Origin: Verrucomicrobiota bacterium
GTDB taxonomy: Bacteria > Verrucomicrobiota > Verrucomicrobiia > Limisphaerales > PALSA-1396
DNA length: 64,000 nucleotides
NCBI GenBank assembly: GCA_016200005.1
Contig: JACQFP010000069.1
Span: 1 to 64,000, forward strand
Direction of reading: 5' to 3'
Under the pieces are notes generated by a model that worked only from the letters and a program-made list of their open reading frames with translations, was not told where the DNA came from and ran no database searches. The position numbers and the translations under genes are program-made. Numbering within the stretch: position 1 is the stretch's first letter; every line of letters begins with the position of its first letter. Positions 41,318 through 52,234 of the stretch are shown piece by piece.

Positions 41318-44300
41318 TTATGGAGTTTTCGGGCGATAGAATTTCTTGACTTCCAATGGGGCTGGCACGGTGTAGGGACTGGTGGCGCCGACCAAATCGC
41401 TCCACGGGCCGCCGATGTTGTCGGCGCTTTGCAACGGCACACCGCCCGTCCAGCGGATGACGATATCGCTGCCTTCCAGCCGTACGGTGATGCATCCTGG
41501 AATTTTGCCGGCACTCGGACCGCCCAACGAAGCGATGGAAGCATCGGATCTCCGCCCACTGCTGAACTGGACACTGCTGACATAGGCATCGTTGTTGTAG
41601 CCGTTGTTTTCGGCGAACAGCAACGCGAAAGAAGTTTGCAGCGAGAACCGGCCATCCACCACATCGAGCCCTTCCGTCTGTTCTCCCACCTTGACGCCAT
41701 CAACAAACTTGGCAACGACCGGGTGAATTCCGGGGCCGGACATATCCACCGCCAGGGCGATCCGATGCCAGACATCCGGCGTGATATTGCCGTGATAAAT
41801 GCCGTTGATCCCGATGCCATTGGCGAAATCGTCGATATAGAATTCGCTGTCATCGCCACCGTTGGTGGCAGTCGTGCTGGCCTGCAGCAAGGCGCGCCAC
41901 GCCAGGTCTGAGCTGCTGGGATAAAGGATGTCATAGATAATGGTGTACTGATTGACATTGGCGCCGCCACCATTTGGCAACGCGCCGTGGAACATTTTGT
42001 AGCCGCCCCAAGCGTCAGTACTGGGATTCTCGCCGGGGCTGACGTTACTGCCACTGGCCGGAGTGAACTTCATAACCGTGGCCGGCTGGCCATTGATGCT
42101 GGCGATGGCGAAATTGGCAGTCGTATTGAACGTGGTGGTGGCCTGCACCGAGGCGTCAAAATATTGCAGGTCCTGGCCGCAACTTGCGGCAAGGTTGCCG
42201 TTGAAGTCCCATTGGCCGGTGACAACGGCACCGGGGTTAATGACCGTCACCAATGCAGGCACGCTGCTCGTCACTGAGCCGCCGGCATTGCTCACGATCA
42301 CATCATAACTGCCAGCGTCGGAAACTTGCGCATTTTGGATATTAAAAACAGACAGAATCGCGCCCGGAAGATTCGTGCCGTCGTGACGCCATTGATATTG
42401 CAAGCCGTAGCCTACCGCGCTGACCGTCAGCACTTCGGCCGCGTTGCCGATCGCGACTGTTTGATTCACCGGAGCGGGGCCGGCGGCGATCAAAGGCGGA
42501 CTGAAGGCCGACGGAGAGAGGCTGTAGAGGCCAAAGTCATCCACGCCGAAATACCAGCTATCGCTCGCGACCTGCGCAAATCGAAACCGTACCGCAGGCT
42601 GGTTGTCCGCCGCGGTCAAACGAATGACTTCGACGCGCTTGGATTCCGCATCGTCATCGTTCAGCCGGGCGCTGAGGTAGGGGCCGAGGGTGGACCATTG
42701 GCTTTGGCCCACGCCAATGAAAGCGCCGTAATTGCCCGGCGGAGGCACGTCTCCGTGCGCAACCGCAAAGGTGTTTGACGCATCCACACTGTGCGCGTTG
42801 TTGAAGGCGATGTCCGGGCCGTCGAGCAGGTAAAGTGCAGGCAACCAGGTGGCGCCACCATTGATGGAGTACTCGACCGAACCGAGACTGTCCTGGTTTT
42901 GCTTGTAAATGTTGTGGAACGAGAGATGGACATTGGAATGGCCGGTCAGATTGTAATCCCTTGTGAATAGATACTGGATCTGATTGCCTGCCGAGCGATG
43001 AGCCGACACAGCGAAGATGAAGTTTGTGTCGATCAGGTTTGTGACCGGCGCACCGTTAATGAATTGATTGGGTGCGACACTGAAAGCGCTCAAGTAATCC
43101 CGCCCCAAGTCGTTCGGCACCGTAGTCAGATTGGACAGGGTGCTGCGACTGATCACCACCCAGTTCGTAAAGGAGTCCGAACGGAAGTCGTTAAGATCAT
43201 TTCCAGGAATGACATCAAGGTCGGTCGAGTTTGCGACCGACCACCCGGCAGGCAAGGTCTCTTCCGCCAAGGCATCAAAGTTTTCCAGATAAATGGGCGG
43301 GCCAAGATTGAGGTTCACGTAAGACCCGACCGTGAATTGAAATTGATTGGTCTTTGTGGTGACCGGGAGGCCGTTGTCGCTCCAGACAATTCTGTAAGTG
43401 TGGGTCGAAAGCGCCGTCAGGAGCCCGGGAGGATCGTATTGAATCGTCGTCAGATCGGCGGACTTCTGAATGGTCGGCGTCACGGGCGAGCCATCGAAAG
43501 AAAACTGGAGGGAGTTGGTGTTCACCGTCTTGGCGACATCTCTCAAGCCGACATTAATGAGAACCGCCGGGCTGACGCCGGGCTGATTGTCGGTTGGCGA
43601 CGCGGTTTCGAGAAGGGTTGTCTCATTGGTATTGATCACGTCGAGCTTCACGAGATCGACATAGGTGTCGGGGCTGCCGCTGACACCCGCATTGGGGCTG
43701 CGTGTGATATACACGGTCGCTTTACGCGCTCCCGTTGGCACTGGCGCCCTTGTGGAATATTTTATCCATTCATGATTACCTGCAAGATTCCCGGGGAAGT
43801 TGGAAGTGCCGTCGGCGAATATGACGGCATGGGTGCCGTCCGTGCGATCAAAGATGACGTTGGTGCCAATCTGGTTGGTGCCGGTCGCATCGAAAAATCG
43901 AAGATTCAGAAAGGGCTGTTCCGGATTTGAGTGGGGTTTGCCATAGGAAGCGAGCCAGGCGCTGAACGTGTATTGACCGCGGTTAGCGTCAATGTCCGTC
44001 CCGCTCAACGCATTGGTAAGATTCACCGTTTGCTTGAGCGCGTATTTCAAATTGTATTGCAGATGGTCGGTCAGGTTGGTCGGAGTGACAAAGAGTGCAT
44101 ACGCATCCACCGCACTTTGGTGCCGCCAGGCATAATGGCTGCCGGGATTCTCGGCGGCAGGAATCGTCACCCCGTCATAGTATGCGACCGACCAGGAGTG
44201 CGAGATGGAACTGACGATGCCGTCCCAACCCGCTTCCATCCCGTCCCGGCGTCCACCGTACGCACTTGCGCCTCCGATCAAGGTATCGAAGCTACCGTTC

Positions 44301-44386
44301 TGGATCAGGTCGATGGCATTGACGTTGCCGATGAAGGCCATCCCCCCAGCGAGGATGGAAGCGCCCATTCGGAATTTTGTTTTCAT
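41318..44386 (-). CDS. Large secreted LamG/Ig-like domain protein
   Basis: 1022 residues from the ATG at 44384-44386, which gives MKTKFRMGASILAGGMAFIG and cleavage near VNAID. N-terminal part: a DUF642-like/jelly-roll domain starting DLIQNGSFDTLIGG. Middle: a choice-of-anchor-type domain (YLENFDALAEETLPAGW). Then an Ig-like repeat (NQTVAIGNAAEVLTVSA, YQWRHDGTNLPGAI) and a concanavalin-like domain (TGQWDFNGNLAASCG). The last 50 residues (PLQSADNIGGPWSDLVG ... FYRP) match a C-terminal module I associate with many verrucomicrobial secreted proteins. No catalytic motif was found. Carbohydrate binding or a surface role is inferred. It is convergent with the GH16 gene. Confidence 0.87.
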   Translation of the reverse strand: MKTKFRMGASILAGGMAFIGNVNAIDLIQNGSFDTLIGGASAYGGRRDGMEAGWDGIVSSISHSWSVAYYDGVTIPAAENPGSHYAWRHQSAVDAYALFVTPTNLTDHLQYNLKYALKQTVNLTNALSGTDIDANRGQYTFSAWLASYGKPHSNPEQPFLNLRFFDATGTNQIGTNVIFDRTDGTHAVIFADGTSNFPGNLAGNHEWIKYSTRAPVPTGARKATVYITRSPNAGVSGSPDTYVDLVKLDVINTNETTLLETASPTDNQPGVSPAVLINVGLRDVAKTVNTNSLQFSFDGSPVTPTIQKSADLTTIQYDPPGLLTALSTHTYRIVWSDNGLPVTTKTNQFQFTVGSYVNLNLGPPIYLENFDALAEETLPAGWSVANSTDLDVIPGNDLNDFRSDSFTNWVVISRSTLSNLTTVPNDLGRDYLSAFSVAPNQFINGAPVTNLIDTNFIFAVSAHRSAGNQIQYLFTRDYNLTGHSNVHLSFHNIYKQNQDSLGSVEYSINGGATWLPALYLLDGPDIAFNNAHSVDASNTFAVAHGDVPPPGNYGAFIGVGQSQWSTLGPYLSARLNDDDAESKRVEVIRLTAADNQPAVRFRFAQVASDSWYFGVDDFGLYSLSPSAFSPPLIAAGPAPVNQTVAIGNAAEVLTVSAVGYGLQYQWRHDGTNLPGAILSVFNIQNAQVSDAGSYDVIVSNAGGSVTSSVPALVTVINPGAVVTGQWDFNGNLAASCGQDLQYFDASVQATTTFNTTANFAIASINGQPATVMKFTPASGSNVSPGENPSTDAWGGYKMFHGALPNGGGANVNQYTIIYDILYPSSSDLAWRALLQASTTATNGGDDSEFYIDDFANGIGINGIYHGNITPDVWHRIALAVDMSGPGIHPVVAKFVDGVKVGEQTEGLDVVDGRFSLQTSFALLFAENNGYNNDAYVSSVQFSSGRRSDASIASLGGPSAGKIPGCITVRLEGSDIVIRWTGGVPLQSADNIGGPWSDLVGATSPYTVPAPLEVKKFYRPKTP

Positions 44387-44526
44387 GGTTTTCGCTTTTG
44401 TTCGTGGATGTTTACGGTTGACTGAAATGATTCGCCAAATCGGTGTGGACCTGGCTTTGTTCTTATGGCTGTGCTCACAATACGCTGATTGTAGTTTTTT
44501 CCACCGTCGGGTTACCTCAAGTTGTC

Positions 44527-44928
44527 TCAATTCTTCATCGCGCCCCACGTTTTCAGATCTTTCTCGCGCGGCAACCGCATCGCGCTTAGGGCCGCCCGGC
44601 ACTTTTCGCAAGTCGGTCCGCCGCGGTCATTATTTCTGCGCATCAACGTCAGGTGGTTGTCCTTGTCGCAATAATATCCCACGACTTCCACGAGTCCGTC
44701 GTCCTTGCATTTTGGGCAAGTGACCCCGAGAAACTGAGAGCGACTCGTGTAAAACTTGCCGCCGCATTTGGTGCACATATAACCGTTCGCGTCGGAATCG
44801 CTGGCCTCTTCGGCGATGTTTTTCCGGCAACCGCTCCCGATCAGCAGTGCTGCAGCCATGCCAAAGACCAGTGAAACCCGAAAGTGCAGGTGCCAGGCTC
44901 CGACGCAATTTGTTTTTCGTAGCGGCAT
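44527..44928 (-). CDS. Small Cys-rich lipoprotein with zinc-ribbon-like knuckles
   Basis: 133 residues. A signal peptide ends in a lipobox (ALLIGSGC, Cys at about 34). The mature part has CTKCGG, CPKC, a lone YYCDKD and CEKC, giving up to two four-Cys metal or redox sites. It starts 8 bp after the pseudopilin stop, so the two are one operon. An outer-membrane or periplasmic zinc-ribbon protein is unusual because such sites are mostly cytoplasmic. No function is known to me; it may take part in pseudopilus assembly or metal binding. Confidence 0.8.
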   Translation of the reverse strand: MPLRKTNCVGAWHLHFRVSLVFGMAAALLIGSGCRKNIAEEASDSDANGYMCTKCGGKFYTSRSQFLGVTCPKCKDDGLVEVVGYYCDKDNHLTLMRRNNDRGGPTCEKCRAALSAMRLPREKDLKTWGAMKN

Positions 44929-44936
44929 GGTTCAGG

Positions 44937-45713
44937 TCAAGGATCAGAATCGCAACCGAGGTACAAACTCAAAATGTATCTCTTTTCTGGACGATCTGAG
45001 ACAAATTCAACGTGGCCGTCACAAAAGGAAATATTCCCGCCATCGGCGCCGTGATTATCGATCGGGTCGGGAATGTTGTTGCGCGTGCCTTGATAGCCAC
45101 CGTCGCCATCCAAAAACAGCCAGGCCTGCGAAGGGCTGGCCTTCGTGCCCTTGAAGGAAAATCCGTACGAAGACGAAAAATGATAGATCCAGTTTTGGAC
45201 GTTGGACGAAGTTTTTCGGGCATTCAGGCCGTAGGCACCTGAACTGTAGCCCCACCAGCCGAAAAGTTCATAACTGGAACCCGGATGCTTCTTGCTAAGG
45301 GCAAATTGTGTCAGGTCCAGGAGAACCAGGTCTGTCGCTGAAGTTGAACGTCGGATGTAATTGGTGCTGCGAATGAAGTTTTGAGTCGCCGGACAAACAA
45401 AAACCTTCAGGTTGGAAATATAATTCGAATACAACCAACTCTGGTCATCATCCCCATCCCCAAGGACGTTGGAGAAGTTTCCTTTCGGATCATCTTCCGA
45501 ATACATCTGGCTGCCCAATTGCATCTGTTTCAAATTGTTCGCGCACGAGATCTGCAGTCCCTTCTTCTTGGCCTTGGCCAGGGCGGGCAACAGCAAACCG
45601 GCGAGAATCGCTATAATGGCGATGACAACCAACAACTCGATCAAAGTGAAACCAGACACTTCCTGTTTCAAAAAGCTTGTGTAGAACAGTCGTGGTTTGC
45701 GGCTGGGTTTCAT
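44937..45713 (-). CDS. Type II secretion-like pseudopilin
   Basis: 258 residues from the ATG at 45711-45713 ([10 protein letters not shown]); an upstream ATG at 45761 is possible. The prepilin cleavage site is [20 protein letters not shown] with the conserved Glu5, followed by [14 protein letters not shown] and [12 protein letters not shown]. The C terminus has [15 protein letters not shown], the H-x-G-type ending seen in planctomycete and verrucomicrobial pseudopilins. Such organisms encode dozens of these, and most have no demonstrated role. It lies in an operon with the Cys-rich lipoprotein. Confidence 0.92.
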
Positions 45714-46152
45714 TTTGGCAGTCGTTGTGAGAAAGTCGCCAAACCTGTTAGGGAAAGGCACCGAAGGAATTGCTGTTTTGACGTCGTTGGCCGGTGGTTG
45801 ACGTTCTATGCTGCTGGCAGATGACGTTCGCGTCCTTCATGATTTGTGCTGGTGCAGACAATTTACAGTGAAATCTAAAGTGAACAATAGCCTGTTTTGG
45901 GGGCAAACGGTTGTCGGTTGGCTGAAAGCTCCGTGAACCCCGCTGCCCACAAAATCGGCCCGCAATTCGCCGTGTGCCTCGCTCGCAGAAGCAATCCTAT
46001 TAAAAAGCTGATCGGCTTGAATCGGTTCACCTGTTCGTGCTGCGTCTGGAGTCAGGCCATCCTTTGGATGAGTGAAAGCCGAATCGGTTTCTCGCGAGCG
46101 TCGTGGATGTTGACACCCTCGGTGAAACGGATTCTGTTGTTGGCAATACAGA
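45714..46152. other. 439-bp divergent intergenic region
   Basis: Between the pseudopilin (minus) and the atypical regulator (plus), so it should carry promoters for both. On the minus strand TTGTTC and TAAATT occur with 16 bp between them (within about 45850-45895), a possible sigma-70 promoter for the pseudopilin operon. The long minus-strand frame 45837-46271 overlaps the regulator start and has no family motif. Confidence 0.35.
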
Positions 46153-47487
46153 ATGGCCAAGCAACGTCCAAGCAAATCTCCTGGCCACGCTTCCCCGGCA
46201 TGGGCGGCCAATTGTGCTTCGCTTAAGCCCGCGAGTTTCTGGCGCAAACGGGTTTTCAAGAGCACGTTCACCCGCGGCGGTCAGAGCATTGTCGTCAAAG
46301 GATGGGCAATCCGAATCCAATACCAAGGAAAACGCCGAACCTTTTCCCTGGGCCCGAGCAACCGACTCGCAGCCGCGTTGAAGGCGGGGCAAATCTACCA
46401 AACCATTCTGAGAAAAGGCTGGGACATTGCCGCTCAACTCTACGCCAGAAAAAAGCTTGCCCGTGCACAGCCAGCGGTGGAAGTCAGGCCGCCGCAATCA
46501 CTGAAAACCAGTATTCGTTATTGGAAACTTCGTTTGCTTCGACGCCGGCACTCCCGTCTCTCCATGACTGGCCCGGGCGAGGAATTCGCCGTCAGAATCG
46601 AACATGGAGGAATCAGTCACTTTTTTCCGTTGGGCGCACTGGCCGAGGAAGCCGCGGCAACGAAAGCGTTGGAGATTTACCGGACGGTTGTGAGCAAAGG
46701 ATGGGACACGGCCAACCGCTGGTTTTCCCGCGAACTGACCTTGGGTTTCCACTGGGCCACCAACCCCGTGGCCTGGACTTACACAACGATTCACACACGG
46801 ATTCAAAAGCCCGAGACGCCACCGCAGGAGGCCAAGGACAAGTCGCCTTTGAGCATTGTCATTGTTGAAGGCGACGCCGGCGTTCAGAAAGCCATCGCCT
46901 GGCACCTCCGCCGCTTTCAGCCTGCCAGCAACGCTGTGGGCATCGCCCGCGGAACAGACGCACTGCGGGAAGTTCCCCGCCATTCGTACCAACTGATGCT
47001 CGCCAATCACAGTTTGCCCGACATGTCGGGCGACGGGCTTCTGCAAAGAATGAAGAGTGTCGCGCCGCAGTTGCCGGTTCTGATTTATTCCGTTTACGAA
47101 GATAGCGACGAGTTGTTCAAGGCCACGCCGGGCGGTGCGGCGGGCTATATGTTAAAGCGCACTCTGCCGGAACAGATGCTGGAGCCGATCGCCGGATTGC
47201 TGCCGCATGGACCGATTAAACCGCAATTGATGGTTCAGCAGGTCAGGCAATACTTTCAGAACGTCACCACGCTGCTCCAATCCGGCGGCGAATTCCATGA
47301 GATCGGCAGGCTCACACCGCGCGAAAAGGAAATCCTTGGCCATTTGAGCAAAGGCTATCTGGACAAGGAGATCGCACAGTCGCTCGGAATCAGCGTCTGG
47401 ACGGTGCACGGGCACTTGAAGAATATTTTTGAGAAACTCCAGGTCCACTCCCGCACCGAAGCCGTGGTGAAGTTCCTCCAAAAATGA
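46153..47487 (+). CDS. Atypical LuxR-type regulator: two integrase-Arm-like repeats + pseudo-receiver + HTH
   Basis: 444 residues. Two related N-terminal units: WAIRIQYQGKRRTFSLG (51-67) with AGQIYQTILRKGWDIA (78-93), and FAVRIEHGGISHFFPLG (145-161) with ALEIYRTVVSKGWDTA. These resemble the Arm/AP2-like DNA-binding segment at the start of tyrosine recombinases. A receiver domain follows (232-350): VIVEGDAG, YSVYED and MLKRT are kept, but the phospho-acceptor position reads LMLANHSLPD, with Asn285 for Asp. The C-terminal LuxR HTH is intact (LTPREKEILGHLSKGY, ISVWTVHGHLKNIFEKL). It probably works without phosphorylation. It is convergent with the sulfotransferase gene (12-bp gap). Confidence 0.85.
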   Translation: MAKQRPSKSPGHASPAWAANCASLKPASFWRKRVFKSTFTRGGQSIVVKGWAIRIQYQGKRRTFSLGPSNRLAAALKAGQIYQTILRKGWDIAAQLYARKKLARAQPAVEVRPPQSLKTSIRYWKLRLLRRRHSRLSMTGPGEEFAVRIEHGGISHFFPLGALAEEAAATKALEIYRTVVSKGWDTANRWFSRELTLGFHWATNPVAWTYTTIHTRIQKPETPPQEAKDKSPLSIVIVEGDAGVQKAIAWHLRRFQPASNAVGIARGTDALREVPRHSYQLMLANHSLPDMSGDGLLQRMKSVAPQLPVLIYSVYEDSDELFKATPGGAAGYMLKRTLPEQMLEPIAGLLPHGPIKPQLMVQQVRQYFQNVTTLLQSGGEFHEIGRLTPREKEILGHLSKGYLDKEIAQSLGISVWTVHGHLKNIFEKLQVHSRTEAVVKFLQK

Positions 47488-47499
47488 TACCAACGAGTG

Positions 47500-49080
47500 T
47501 CAATAACCGAAGGCCTCGATGGATGGTTGGAGAATTTCCAGGCACGGCTCCAATTGCCTCGCGTAATTGTTCCAACGGCCAATTGAACTGGTGTAAAGCG
47601 GCCGGCTGACGGCCTCGTAGGTGGGCGAGGCAACGGCCTTTTGCTTGAGCCGCTCGCGATAGTTCATCACGTGCGCTTCCCAGGGCAATTCCAGAAAATC
47701 CAGCGCCCGCCGCGACTCGCGTTCCAGATTGGCGACGCAATCTTCGTAACGGACTTCCAGCCACGGCGAACAGATTATTTCGCGCAACTTTCGCCAGATT
47801 CCCAGGTCATGCGCGTAGCGACGTGCCGTGCGCTCCAATGTCAGAAAGCAAACGCTGTTCGTATTGAGCGGCAGGTATTGCATGAAACAACTCAGCACCA
47901 CGTCGCGTGGATCGCGCAGCGAAATGAGCAGCTTCGTTTCCGGAAAGAGACGCAGCACCGCGGGCAGGACAAGTGTGAGCGAAGGATTCTTGTCGAGGTG
48001 GATGCGGTCACCGATGGGCTCGTTCAACGCGGCCGCCATGTAACTAAAATAACGCGCGCGCTGAGCGGCCAATCGCTCCAGGGGAATGGCGTCCAGCGCA
48101 GCCGCCGTTGGCAGCCGGGTCTTGTCGCTCAGCCACATGGCCGGAAAGATGTCGCGCGCGAAGGCCTCGCGTTCATCAGAACTCACCAGCCCGGAATGAC
48201 TGTCCAACACCTGCTCCAACAACGTCGTGCCAGAACGGGGAAAGCTGGTGAGCGCGGCCGTTTTTTGACGGGTGAACGCACGTCCCGCCTCCGCCCAATT
48301 CTGGAAATGTTTTGCCGTAAGTGAATTCGTCAGGTCGGACAAGTGTCGTTGCAGGTTCTCCGACTCGCGGTGAAGCGGCGCGGCCTCTCGAAGCAGAATC
48401 TCCTTGCAGCGCTGCATGGCCTGCATCGCCTCCTCGAATTCCGCGCGGCCGTCGAGCATCTGCGCAACCTCCGCCCAGGCCTGGGCGCGGACCTGTGGGT
48501 GGGCGTGATCGTTGCTGGCGAGTGCCCGAAAGAGAGACTCCGATGCAGTTTCCTCCTTCATCCGGCGAAGCAGGCGAGCCTTGAACAGTTTTGCCTCCAG
48601 ATAGTCCGGCTCAGCTTTGAGGCAATCTTCGATCAGCGCATAAGCCTCTTCCAGTCGGTGCCGACGCTCGTAGAGAATGGCCAGCTCCAATTGAGCGTCC
48701 GGAATTTGTTTTGTGAGTGCTAGGACGCGTCGAAAGCAGTCGATCGCCTTGTCCGGTCGAAAAAACATGCGGTAGCTTTGGCCAGCCAGGTGAAGAATAT
48801 CCGGGCGTTGCGCGCCCAGCTTCATCAGCCGGTCGAGCATCGCTTCGGCCCGCATGATTTCAAAGCGAGCGCCCAACGCCCGGCTGGCGTCAATCAGTGC
48901 CACAAGGTTTTGTGGATGCGTCCGGACGGCTTTTTCGAACAATTGCAGTGACTCATCAAAGCGGTTGAGTTGCCAAAGCGCCCGCGCCTGCTGCAATTCT
49001 GAAAGGTCAACTCCGAGCCCGGGAATGATCGTGGGCTGTTGCTGGGCGGGGCCATAATTTCTGTTGGTGCGCTTGGCCAT
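47500..49080 (-). CDS. TPR-sulfotransferase fusion protein
   Basis: 526 residues. Residues 25-240 are tetratricopeptide-like helices (WQLNRFDESLQLFEKAVRTH; PDAQLELAILYERRHRLEEA). Residues 270-520 are a sulfotransferase: TSFPRSGTTLLEQVLDSH is the PAPS 5'-phosphosulfate loop, LDKNPSLTLVLPAVLRLFP and LISLRDPRDVVLS the 3'-phosphate site. It transfers sulfate from PAPS to a hydroxyl or Tyr, or may act on a protein bound by the TPRs. There is no signal peptide. Substrate unknown; sulfation of exported polymer is possible. Confidence 0.9.
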   Translation of the reverse strand: MAKRTNRNYGPAQQQPTIIPGLGVDLSELQQARALWQLNRFDESLQLFEKAVRTHPQNLVALIDASRALGARFEIMRAEAMLDRLMKLGAQRPDILHLAGQSYRMFFRPDKAIDCFRRVLALTKQIPDAQLELAILYERRHRLEEAYALIEDCLKAEPDYLEAKLFKARLLRRMKEETASESLFRALASNDHAHPQVRAQAWAEVAQMLDGRAEFEEAMQAMQRCKEILLREAAPLHRESENLQRHLSDLTNSLTAKHFQNWAEAGRAFTRQKTAALTSFPRSGTTLLEQVLDSHSGLVSSDEREAFARDIFPAMWLSDKTRLPTAAALDAIPLERLAAQRARYFSYMAAALNEPIGDRIHLDKNPSLTLVLPAVLRLFPETKLLISLRDPRDVVLSCFMQYLPLNTNSVCFLTLERTARRYAHDLGIWRKLREIICSPWLEVRYEDCVANLERESRRALDFLELPWEAHVMNYRERLKQKAVASPTYEAVSRPLYTSSIGRWNNYARQLEPCLEILQPSIEAFGY

Positions 49081-49293
49081 GTTGTCGGCGGTGGGTGGAA
49101 GCGAATCACAAAGTGCCTGGTTGCCGAAAGCAAAAAAGCCACCTCAGAACGTGTTCAATTACAAAATCAACCCGGCGTGGCTGAATTCACCGGCCATCCC
49201 CCCAAAACTGGCCATTGTGAATCTCATCATTCAAAGTATGCTCGCACAAAACCCATGCGGTCCCGAACCTCAAAAATATCCAGGCGCGCAACA

Positions 49294-50577
49294 ATGTCGC
49301 ACCGCCTGACAATCCTAAGCCGCCACGATAATCGTTCCGACCGGGCGCAATTGATCGACACTCGGATCGCGCGCTGCCAGCCCGGCTGGTCCTTGCCGCG
49401 AGAGTTTTATTGCGACGAACCTGTTTACCGCGCTGACGTTGACCGCATCTGGCGGCGCGGCTGGCTTTTTGCGGGCCATTCCTGCGAGATTCCGAAATCG
49501 GGTGATTACTTCACGTTGGCGGTGGATACGGATTCGCTCGTCATCATTCGCGGCGACGACGGCCTCGTGCGCGGATTGCACAACGTCTGTCGCCATCGCG
49601 GCTCGCTGATTTGCACCGAGCCGACCGGTCATGCGGCCAGGCTGGTCTGTCCTTACCACCAATGGACGTACAGCCGCGATGGGCGATTGCTCGCGTGCCG
49701 TGGCATGCAGGAGGATTTGGACAAGTCACAGTTCGGCTTGCGTCCCGTCCACGCGCGCGAAGTTGAAGGATTGATCTACATCAGCCTTGCGGACGAACCG
49801 CCCAGCTTTGATCCCGCCGCGCAACGGCTCGCCTCGCTGGCGCGGCCTCAAGGCTTGCAAAAGGCGAAGGTCGCAAAGGCCGTTGATTACCTCGTGAAGG
49901 CAAACTGGAAACTCGTCTGGGAAAACAATCGCGAATGTTTCCATTGCAACTTCGGCCATCCGCAATACATCAAGGCCAACTTCGATCATTACAACGCGGA
50001 TGACACCACGCCCGGCCTCAGGAAGAAAATCGCCGCCGCGGTGGCGCACAGCGAACAGAAGTGGGCCGCTGCCGGTCTGGCCGCCACCCACAAGCAAACC
50101 GGGATGACGGTTTTTCCCGCCGCCGAAAACAACATCTGGTTTTCCGCCAACCGCACCGCATTGGTGGATGGCTACGTGAGCGAAACGATGGACGGCAAAC
50201 AAGTCGCCCCCCTCATGGGCGATTATCGCGAAGCCGATGTCGGCACGTTGCGGATGCGGTCTCTGCCGAACTTTTGGAACCATTCCAGTTGCGACCACGC
50301 CGTCAGCACGCGCTTGCTGCCCGCCGGACCCCAGCAAACCGCCGTCCGGGTTTACTGGCTTGTCAAGGCCGGGGCTGTGGAAGGCAGCGACTATCAACTG
50401 GAAAAGGTGATGTCCTTCTGGCAACTGACTTCCGAACAGGATTGGGAAATTTGCGATCGCCAGCAACGCGGGGTCAATTCCAGCGCTTACACTCCCGGCC
50501 CCTATTCCACCTACAAGGAATACAACGTGGACGGCTTTGTGCGGTGGTATTTGCAAACAATGAAACGTGAGGCGTGA
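49294..50577 (+). CDS. Rieske oxygenase, quaternary-ammonium type (GbcA/stachydrine demethylase/CntA-like)
   Basis: 427 residues from the ATG at 49294; the longer frame back to 49039 overlaps the divergent gene. Rieske cluster: Cys99-x-His101 (CRHRG) and Cys119-x2-His122 (CPYHQW). Mononuclear iron site: NNRECFHCNFGHP, with His217 and His222 as ligands. The bridging position before the first His is Glu214, as in carnitine and betaine oxygenases, where most Rieske enzymes have Asp. QDWEICDRQQRG supplies the third ligand region. It should demethylate a betaine-type substrate with O2 and electrons from a reductase that is not in the window. First gene of a six-gene operon. Confidence 0.92.
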   Translation: MSHRLTILSRHDNRSDRAQLIDTRIARCQPGWSLPREFYCDEPVYRADVDRIWRRGWLFAGHSCEIPKSGDYFTLAVDTDSLVIIRGDDGLVRGLHNVCRHRGSLICTEPTGHAARLVCPYHQWTYSRDGRLLACRGMQEDLDKSQFGLRPVHAREVEGLIYISLADEPPSFDPAAQRLASLARPQGLQKAKVAKAVDYLVKANWKLVWENNRECFHCNFGHPQYIKANFDHYNADDTTPGLRKKIAAAVAHSEQKWAAAGLAATHKQTGMTVFPAAENNIWFSANRTALVDGYVSETMDGKQVAPLMGDYREADVGTLRMRSLPNFWNHSSCDHAVSTRLLPAGPQQTAVRVYWLVKAGAVEGSDYQLEKVMSFWQLTSEQDWEICDRQQRGVNSSAYTPGPYSTYKEYNVDGFVRWYLQTMKREA

Positions 50578-50635
50578 AAGTGAAGTGAACCATGGCCCCA
50601 CGCTCACCCACCCATTCATGCATCACGCATCACGT
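50565..50635 (+). repeat. Imperfect hairpin with CATCACG 7-mers at the oxygenase/MttB junction
   Basis: Arms 50565-50577 and 50623-50635 pair over 12 of 13 bases and span the oxygenase stop codon. The right arm contains two exact CATCACG 7-mers (50621-50634), preceded by a degenerate one. Similar in kind to the 7-mer tracts at 30297 and 56745. Confidence 0.65.
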
Positions 50636-50704
50636 CTCAACCACTCCCCAGTCATTCGACTCGAAATTCGTCCCCATAAGCGAGAGCAACCTCAGCCGCA
50701 GCCC

Positions 50705-52234
50705 ATGAGCTTTCCTCAATTCGCCCAGTTGTTGACGGAAGCGCAAGTGCAGCGCACGCACGAGGCGTCGCTGGAAATTCTTCAACAGGTCGGCTTCGAG
50801 GTTCAAAACGGGAAGGCCCGCGAGATTTTCAAGCGGCACGGATGCGCAGTCGGCGAAAACTCCCGCGTGACGTTTCCGCCGCAGTTGGTCGAAGAATCGC
50901 TCAAGTCCATCCCGCCTCAGTTTACTTTCCGCGCGCACCAACCGGAGTTCGATCGAACCATTCCCGACGATGCCCCGCTGACGATGACGGCGAGTTCCGC
51001 GCCGAACCTCATTGATCCGGTGACACAGGGACATCGCCTTGCGACGAGCGAAGACCTCGCACGCATCGCGCACCTGATTGATCAGTTGCCCGGCATTGAT
51101 CTCTTGTCCGTGCCGACGCTCGCCGCCGACGCGCCCCCCGGCCAGGAGAGCCTCACGCGCTTCTACACCGCGCTCAGGTATTGCCGCAAACCGATCCGGG
51201 GCAGCGCGGCGCCCGGCGACGACGCGGCGGCCATCCTTCAACTCGCCTACGAAATTGCCGGCAGCGAGGCGGCCTACCGCGAGCGTCCGTTCATTACCCA
51301 TCACCATTGTCCGGTGATCGCCCCGTTGCGGATGGACGAACACTCCACGGGGTTGATGATCTTTTATACGGAGCAAGGATTGCCCAATCACCCGACCATC
51401 GTGCCCAACGCAGGCCTGACTTCACCGATGACGCTGGCCGGAACGCTGGCGCAGGGCAACGCCGAGTTTCTCGCCTGCGCCACGCTCACCCAATTGGTCC
51501 GCCCCGGCACGCCGATGATTTACAGCACGCTCTCCACGGTCGCCGACGTGCGGACAGGTGCCTACGCGCCCGGCGGCATCGAGTGCGGCATGTTGAACAT
51601 GGCTCATGCGCAAATGGCTCGGTTTTACCGCGTGCCTTGCGCCGGCTACATCGGGCTGACGAATTCCAAGCTTGTGGATGCGCAAGCCGGCTACGAGAAA
51701 GCGCTGTCTTGCATGGGCGGCCTGCTGGCGGGGATGCACGTCCTGCAATTTGCCGGCTTGCTCGAAGCGCTGCTGACGTTCGATTTCGGGATGGCCGTCG
51801 TGGACAACGAGATTTCCTTGATACTCAAGCGCGTTGCTCGCGGCATGGAGTGGAGCGAAGCCAGCCTGGCGCTCGATGAAATCAAAGCCGTCGGCCCGTC
51901 CGGCATGTTCGTTGACACTGAACTGACCCTCGAACGCATGAAGGCCACGGCGTTCCTCCCTGACGTTGCCGACCGTGAGAGTCGGGAGACCTGGTCAAAG
52001 AAAGGCGGTTTGGACACCGCGGACAAAGCGCTGCTGAAGGCCAGGAAAATTCTGGAGTCGGATTGTCCGTCGCTGTTCTCACCGGAAGTCGAGACCCGGA
52101 TTCGCCAGCGGTTCCAGGGCATGGTCGCCGGTGACTTTAAGGTGATTGAGGGCCGGATGCCGGCGAGCTGTGCGCCAACGGCAGCGGCGACAAGAGCCGC
52201 AATGGTGAAGAGAAACGAAGGAGTCGCCGCTTGA
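50705..52234 (+). CDS. MttB-family methyltransferase (non-pyrrolysine)
   Basis: 509 residues from the ATG at 50705; the frame is open from 50567, and starts at 50618 or 50705 are possible. RTHEASLEILQQVGFEV is the usual family N terminus, and FITHHHCPVIAPLRMDEHS, LAGTLAQGNAEFLACATL and GAYAPGGIECGMLNMAHAQM belong to the TIM-barrel core. There is no in-frame amber codon, so this is the pyrrolysine-free branch, which includes glycine-betaine, proline-betaine and carnitine methyltransferases. These pass a methyl group to a corrinoid protein; none is encoded in the window. It lies right after the Rieske oxygenase, suggesting a shared substrate. Confidence 0.88.
   Translation: MSFPQFAQLLTEAQVQRTHEASLEILQQVGFEVQNGKAREIFKRHGCAVGENSRVTFPPQLVEESLKSIPPQFTFRAHQPEFDRTIPDDAPLTMTASSAPNLIDPVTQGHRLATSEDLARIAHLIDQLPGIDLLSVPTLAADAPPGQESLTRFYTALRYCRKPIRGSAAPGDDAAAILQLAYEIAGSEAAYRERPFITHHHCPVIAPLRMDEHSTGLMIFYTEQGLPNHPTIVPNAGLTSPMTLAGTLAQGNAEFLACATLTQLVRPGTPMIYSTLSTVADVRTGAYAPGGIECGMLNMAHAQMARFYRVPCAGYIGLTNSKLVDAQAGYEKALSCMGGLLAGMHVLQFAGLLEALLTFDFGMAVVDNEISLILKRVARGMEWSEASLALDEIKAVGPSGMFVDTELTLERMKATAFLPDVADRESRETWSKKGGLDTADKALLKARKILESDCPSLFSPEVETRIRQRFQGMVAGDFKVIEGRMPASCAPTAAATRAAMVKRNEGVAA

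Follow-up and report, generated by a model that had tools for sequence, protein, structure and literature searches.

The window, a stretch of 64,000 nucleotides from a bacterium of the order Limisphaerales (Verrucomicrobiota; contig JACQFP010000069.1), carries at 46153-47487 on the plus strand a reading frame of 444 amino acids that is open throughout. The predicted product starts with MAKQRPS, and relatives of the protein open with MSKQRPS, VSKQRPR or MFKQRPS, backing the same start codon. The gene, its parts and the adjoining genes on the opposite strand are as follows:

41318..44611, minus strand: large, probably secreted protein, the true start of which probably lies within this frame
44527..44928, minus strand: small cysteine-rich (zinc-ribbon-like) protein, sub-threshold match to Zn_ribbon_8
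44937..45761, minus strand: divergent pseudopilin gene (N_methyl, PF07963), probable target of the regulator
45762..46152, no strand: divergent intergenic region with three TGACGT copies, likely target
46153..47487, plus strand: whole regulator gene, 444 amino acids
46234..46446, plus strand: arm unit 1 (R1), residues 28-98, strongly basic
46516..46728, plus strand: arm unit 2 (R2), residues 122-192
46720..46800, plus strand: conserved linker RELTLGFHWATNPVAWTYTTIHT, a diagnostic feature of the family
46849..47187, plus strand: pseudo-receiver, residues 233-345
46870..46872, plus strand: Gly240 at the second acidic (Mg-binding) position
47005..47007, plus strand: Asn285 at the phospho-acceptor position
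47311..47484, plus strand: LuxR/GerE HTH, residues 387-444

A Pfam scan recognised Response_reg at residues 235-344 (E = 2e-13) and GerE at residues 387-439 (E = 4e-17), so that the LuxR/GerE HTH follows the receiver in the NarL/FixJ layout, and gave no match for residues 1-230. The NarL model also matched (E = 3e-21), under its equivalog cut-off. Unit 1 reads GWAIRIQYQGKRRTFSLG...IYQTILRKGWD (residues ~28-98) and unit 2 reads FAVRIEHGGISHFFPLG...IYRTVVSKGWD (residues ~122-192). R2 continues directly into the conserved segment RELTLGFHWATNPVAWTYTTIHT, which recombinases lack. The arms are followed by receiver and HTH, with no match to PF00589 and thus no R..HxxR..Y catalytic domain. The two homologous N-terminal units of ~70 residues each, the Asn285 receiver and the intact LuxR HTH, all described in an earlier note on this DNA, were confirmed in the 444-residue frame. 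To judge from its sequence, the protein is an atypical NarL/FixJ-type regulator, in which the architecture is new and the parts are already known.

Comparison of the R1 and R2 family alignments with HHalign gave 99% (E = 1e-18), and 99.4% (E = 6e-21) with larger sets, ruling out that the likeness of the units is a chance repeat. Against integrase arms, the values were 99.8% (E = 1e-30) for R1 and 99.6% (E = 3e-24) for R2. Twenty column shuffles and the receiver/HTH and linker profiles, used as controls, all stayed at or below 1.7%. A repeat profile built on R1 of 15 regulators was searched against 116 genomes of the order. It matched regulators and, with best E values of about 1e-23, the N-termini of open frames of ~370-520 residues. 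These frames encode tyrosine recombinases, in which GLRR or GLRK, HxLR, LRH or LGH, and Y motifs are present; the identification rests also on these motifs, because PF00589 picked up two tested recombinases only weakly. Recombinases such as L149 and L155 fail to reach the Phage_integrase cut-off of Pfam (E = 0.007 and 0.0005), which suggests that this group may be under-annotated. Both profile matches in the window's own genome were the regulator itself, which means that no recombinase with such an arm was found there. On another contig of this genome, 8.3 kb long, four tyrosine recombinase genes lie in a row (L007, L008, L012 and L015; G000:C80:665-4445). The arrangement recalls recombinase-in-trio elements; these genes are without the arm type of the regulator.

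One direct Pfam match was to Arm-DNA-bind_3 (E = 0.006, under the cut-off). The Pfam Arm-DNA-bind gathering score was missed (PF13356, 17.1 bits versus a cut-off of 27), and recombinase arms also fell short in the same test. The AP2 profile matched one of 18 arm sequences (E = 0.05). A sequence search of the PDB found no credible relative of the repeats, and PHROGs gave no consistent family. Neither the regulator nor two of the recombinases had a relative on viral contigs at the sensitivity used. The resemblance to the Arm segment of tyrosine recombinases proposed in the earlier note is supported by the profile search, which recovered recombinase N-termini, by HHalign with its shuffles, by the weak Arm-DNA-bind_3 match and by the predicted fold. 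On the strength of these comparisons, both units at the N-terminus are homologues of the arm-binding domain found in tyrosine recombinases.

Structure models were built on three and four sequences. For R1, AlphaFold2 (four sequences, pLDDT 73.8) predicted strands at 7-17, 20-33 and 36-43 and a helix at 47-64, that is, a beta-beta-beta-alpha fold. In a comparison with 998 aligned chains, the best matches of this model were the arm domain of the HAI7 integrase (3ju0; Z 5.3, rmsd 3.1, 63 aligned residues), the arm of a P4-like integrase (3rmp; Z 5.2, rmsd 2.4, 52 aligned) and SIP2 with its tandem AP2 domains (6sy0; Z 4.8, rmsd 2.8, 56 aligned). An Arm-like fold of the repeat, as the earlier note had anticipated, is thus predicted, with modest Z values and a small margin, since unrelated chains start at Z 4.2. 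Foldseek alone gave no significant match for the R1 model. Given the small margin and the Foldseek result, we regard the fold as supporting evidence and sequence homology as the main argument. The model of the whole protein is weak (pLDDT 56), and mainly residues 232-444 were probed in its fold search; the HTH part of the model matches LuxR-type DNA-binding domains (Z 12.8).

We found 42 relatives with the diagnostic linker, all in Limisphaerales, with many families of the order represented. Two arms precede receiver and HTH in 28 of them, and 13 have one arm, which is R2 in nearly all cases and R1 in one. The remaining gene (L165, G015:C419) is split by an in-frame TGA between the two arms and the receiver-HTH half, with both halves otherwise well conserved; it may reflect an assembly error, a pseudogene or a split regulator. 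Fragments of a second regulator copy, an R1-like piece and a receiver/HTH piece, lie at the far end of the contig of the closest relative (L157:13000-13510, minus strand), and may be a decayed paralogue or an assembly artefact. In a wider sample of 387 genomes of the phylum and 286 of the class, no regulator was seen outside the order. Matches there were recombinase-sized frames in which the similarity ends with the arm or just after it, before the WTYTT of the linker. The architecture, sought in other Verrucomicrobia as the earlier note had suggested, recurs in many genomes, which among those sampled all belong to one order. In a tree on 73 columns, the R1 arms formed one clade (99/98) and the R2 arms another (100/98), which makes a single fixation of each arm position probable. 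The pair may have arisen by internal duplication or by two captures; all integrase arms fell on one side of a branch in only 17% of the bootstrap trees.

Selection on the regulator was estimated by the Nei-Gojobori method from five pairs of relatives, in some of which dS was high. For arms and receiver, the dN/dS ratios were 0.13-0.29 and 0.12-0.32, respectively, and the HTH had ratios of 0.02-0.09; a sixth pair with very low dS (0.09) contributed little. Every part of the regulator is under purifying selection in close relatives, and ratios well below 1 rule out a decaying gene for these. The mean net charge was +9.6 for R1 arms, +5.9 for integrase arms and +2.7 for R2 arms, and the copies in the window carry +13 (R1) and +5 (R2). 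The charge of R1, above that of integrase arms, fits DNA binding by this unit, while R2 is only mildly basic and may not bind DNA. The low charge of R2, together with its retention in nearly all of the 13 single-arm relatives, would suit arms that descend from integrases but now serve protein-protein contact, either for dimerisation or with a partner, leaving the LuxR HTH alone to touch DNA. We consider such a change of function unlikely, because R1 is more basic than the recombinase arms and because both units are under purifying selection.

The receiver pocket was surveyed in the window protein and 41 relatives (42 proteins) and, for comparison, in nine ordinary regulators of the NarL type whose genomes belong to the same order. 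In the window protein, the phospho-acceptor aspartate is replaced by Asn285, the second acidic residue by Gly240 and the threonine by serine; the loss at position 240 was absent from the earlier description. Across the 42 proteins, the phospho-acceptor position is Asn in 38 and Thr, Asp, Arg and His in one each. Position 240 is Pro in 27, Gly in four, Ser in four, Ala in three, Thr in two and Asp in two. Gly (20) and Ser (16) prevail at the Thr position (others 6), and Arg (24) at the Lys position (Lys 9, others 9). All nine ordinary regulators have Asp240, the phospho-Asp, the Thr and the Lys. The frequency of Asn in the family excludes that Asn285 is a sequencing error, and the absence of the phospho-acceptor aspartate reported earlier stands, Asp occurring in a single divergent one-arm relative. 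That relative (L247:297-1295, minus strand) has Gly in the Thr position and, in place of the first acidic residue, Lys. By the definition given in PMC12632262, the predicted receiver of the window protein is a pseudo-receiver of the aspartate-less kind.

Conceivably, acetyl phosphate or phosphorylation at a different residue still switches such a receiver, and the regulator stays in a two-component system. The window protein does retain Glu239, Asp241, Ser313 and Lys335. We nevertheless regard this as highly improbable: most members of the family have lost the phospho-acceptor and the second metal ligand, there is drift at the Thr and Lys positions, ordinary regulators retain all of these residues, and no sensor kinase gene was recognised next to the regulator in the window.

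Gene neighbourhoods were compared between 38 regulator loci and 20 control loci that surround ordinary regulators of that order; the relatives are not independent samples, but come from many families of the order. A pseudopilin gene lay within 3 kb in 22 of the 38 regulator loci versus none of the 20 controls. It was at most 600 bp from the regulator in 19 of the 38 and divergent upstream in 15 of these, and in several loci a similar small gene comes after the pseudopilin. Homologues of the large secreted protein were present within 3 kb in 28/38 versus 2/20 loci, a looser count because the queries were drawn from regulator loci. The control loci matter, as pseudopilins are abundant: the window genome (6.5 Mb) has 122 prepilin-type signals (TIGR02532), a very large set. 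This abundance would also fit a global or distant regulator for which the adjoining pseudopilin operon is not the main target. Some regulator loci, including that of the closest relative in the stretch examined, likewise have no pseudopilin beside the regulator. The contrast in linkage between regulator and control loci argues against this alternative, which we consider improbable. On the other side of the regulator, a Rieske/ring-hydroxylating oxygenase and an MttB-type methyltransferase come after it at 49039-52234 of the window, and members of such oxygenase or MttB-type clusters recur near relatives (L157, L158, L170, L174 and L176).

In the divergent intergenic region, TGACGT occurs three times in direct orientation, at 45779, 45799 and 45822 (spacing 20 and 23 bp; about 45778-45829). 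The nearest relative has the word in both orientations, 36 bp apart. These copies may be arm-type or HTH sites and serve as a lead only. A comparison across loci found no shared operator motif. ATCGTCA-like words are enriched upstream of the regulators, but close relatives drive part of this enrichment and we claim no motif from it. A scan for the sigma-70 consensus found no match, nor did Rfam nearby.

Taken together, we think it fairly probable that the protein is a NarL/FixJ-type regulator with exapted integrase arms that acts independently of phosphorylation and controls the adjoining operon for the pseudopilin and the secreted protein. The basic R1, and perhaps R2 as well, would grip specific DNA, the HTH would bind as a dimer to promoter DNA close by, and the pseudo-receiver would act as a dimerisation or signal hub that does not need phosphorylation. 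Combined, these parts would govern the pseudopilin operon next door, which in the window is divergent, and probably the regulator's own promoter too. DNA binding through two modules and independence of phosphorylation, both suggested in the earlier note, are plausible. In support of this reading are the arm homology, the fold, the loss of phosphorylation residues, purifying selection, the basic R1, the linkage, the intact HTH and the lack of a recognised adjacent kinase. Against it stand the mildly basic R2, a model from four sequences with Z of ~5, the lack of an operator motif and the closest relative without a pseudopilin. More tentatively, and with clearly less confidence, the regulator may be a heterobivalent DNA bridge comparable to a non-catalytic integrase, with the arms on distal sites, the HTH on the promoter, looping of the DNA in between and the pseudo-receiver as a phosphorylation-free hub. 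If so, a DNA-binding domain from mobile elements would have been domesticated in bacteria to form a regulator of pilin-like surface structures that is specific to one lineage.

No description of an arm-receiver-HTH architecture was found in the open-access literature searched. This agrees with the earlier statement that the domain order is without described precedent. The same arrangement of domains recurs in many genomes of one order. The recruitment of integrase arms into a response-regulator-type transcription factor appears to be undescribed in bacteria. The regulator is conserved in many families of this single order, has a candidate target operon alongside and offers a testable case of regulator function after loss of phospho-control. 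IntS suggests how an integrase arm might become a regulator in a simple way: it represses its own promoter, and this promoter overlaps the arm-type sites of IntS (PMC2951348).

Among known systems, the NarL/FixJ regulators of the same order share receiver and LuxR HTH with the regulator (about 35-42% identity there) and motifs such as EDSD and GYLLKRT, but retain the full set of Asp, Asp, Thr and Lys and lack arm units. RitR resembles the regulator in joining a DNA-binding output to a receiver with the same Asp-to-Asn change (PMC4395418, PMC12632262). However, it is without N-terminal arm units, whereas the regulator has two (or one) before the receiver and an output of the LuxR type. The arm domains of tyrosine recombinases (Arm-DNA-bind; 3ju0, 3rmp) have homologous sequence in common with R1 and R2, and the predicted beta-beta-beta-alpha fold in common with R1. 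Unlike tyrosine recombinases, the regulator has no core-binding or catalytic domain, its arm is duplicated and no mobile-element setting was seen. Recombinase-type DNA-binding domains that serve transcription control are also found in ALOG, where such a domain was turned into a plant regulator (PMC3537659), and in SIP2, the tandem AP2 domains of which read a bipartite motif (PMC11927625). Both are eukaryotic and have neither receiver nor LuxR HTH, and the origin of ALOG lies in another recombinase DNA-binding domain; even so, the plant ALOG regulators appear to be the nearest parallel.
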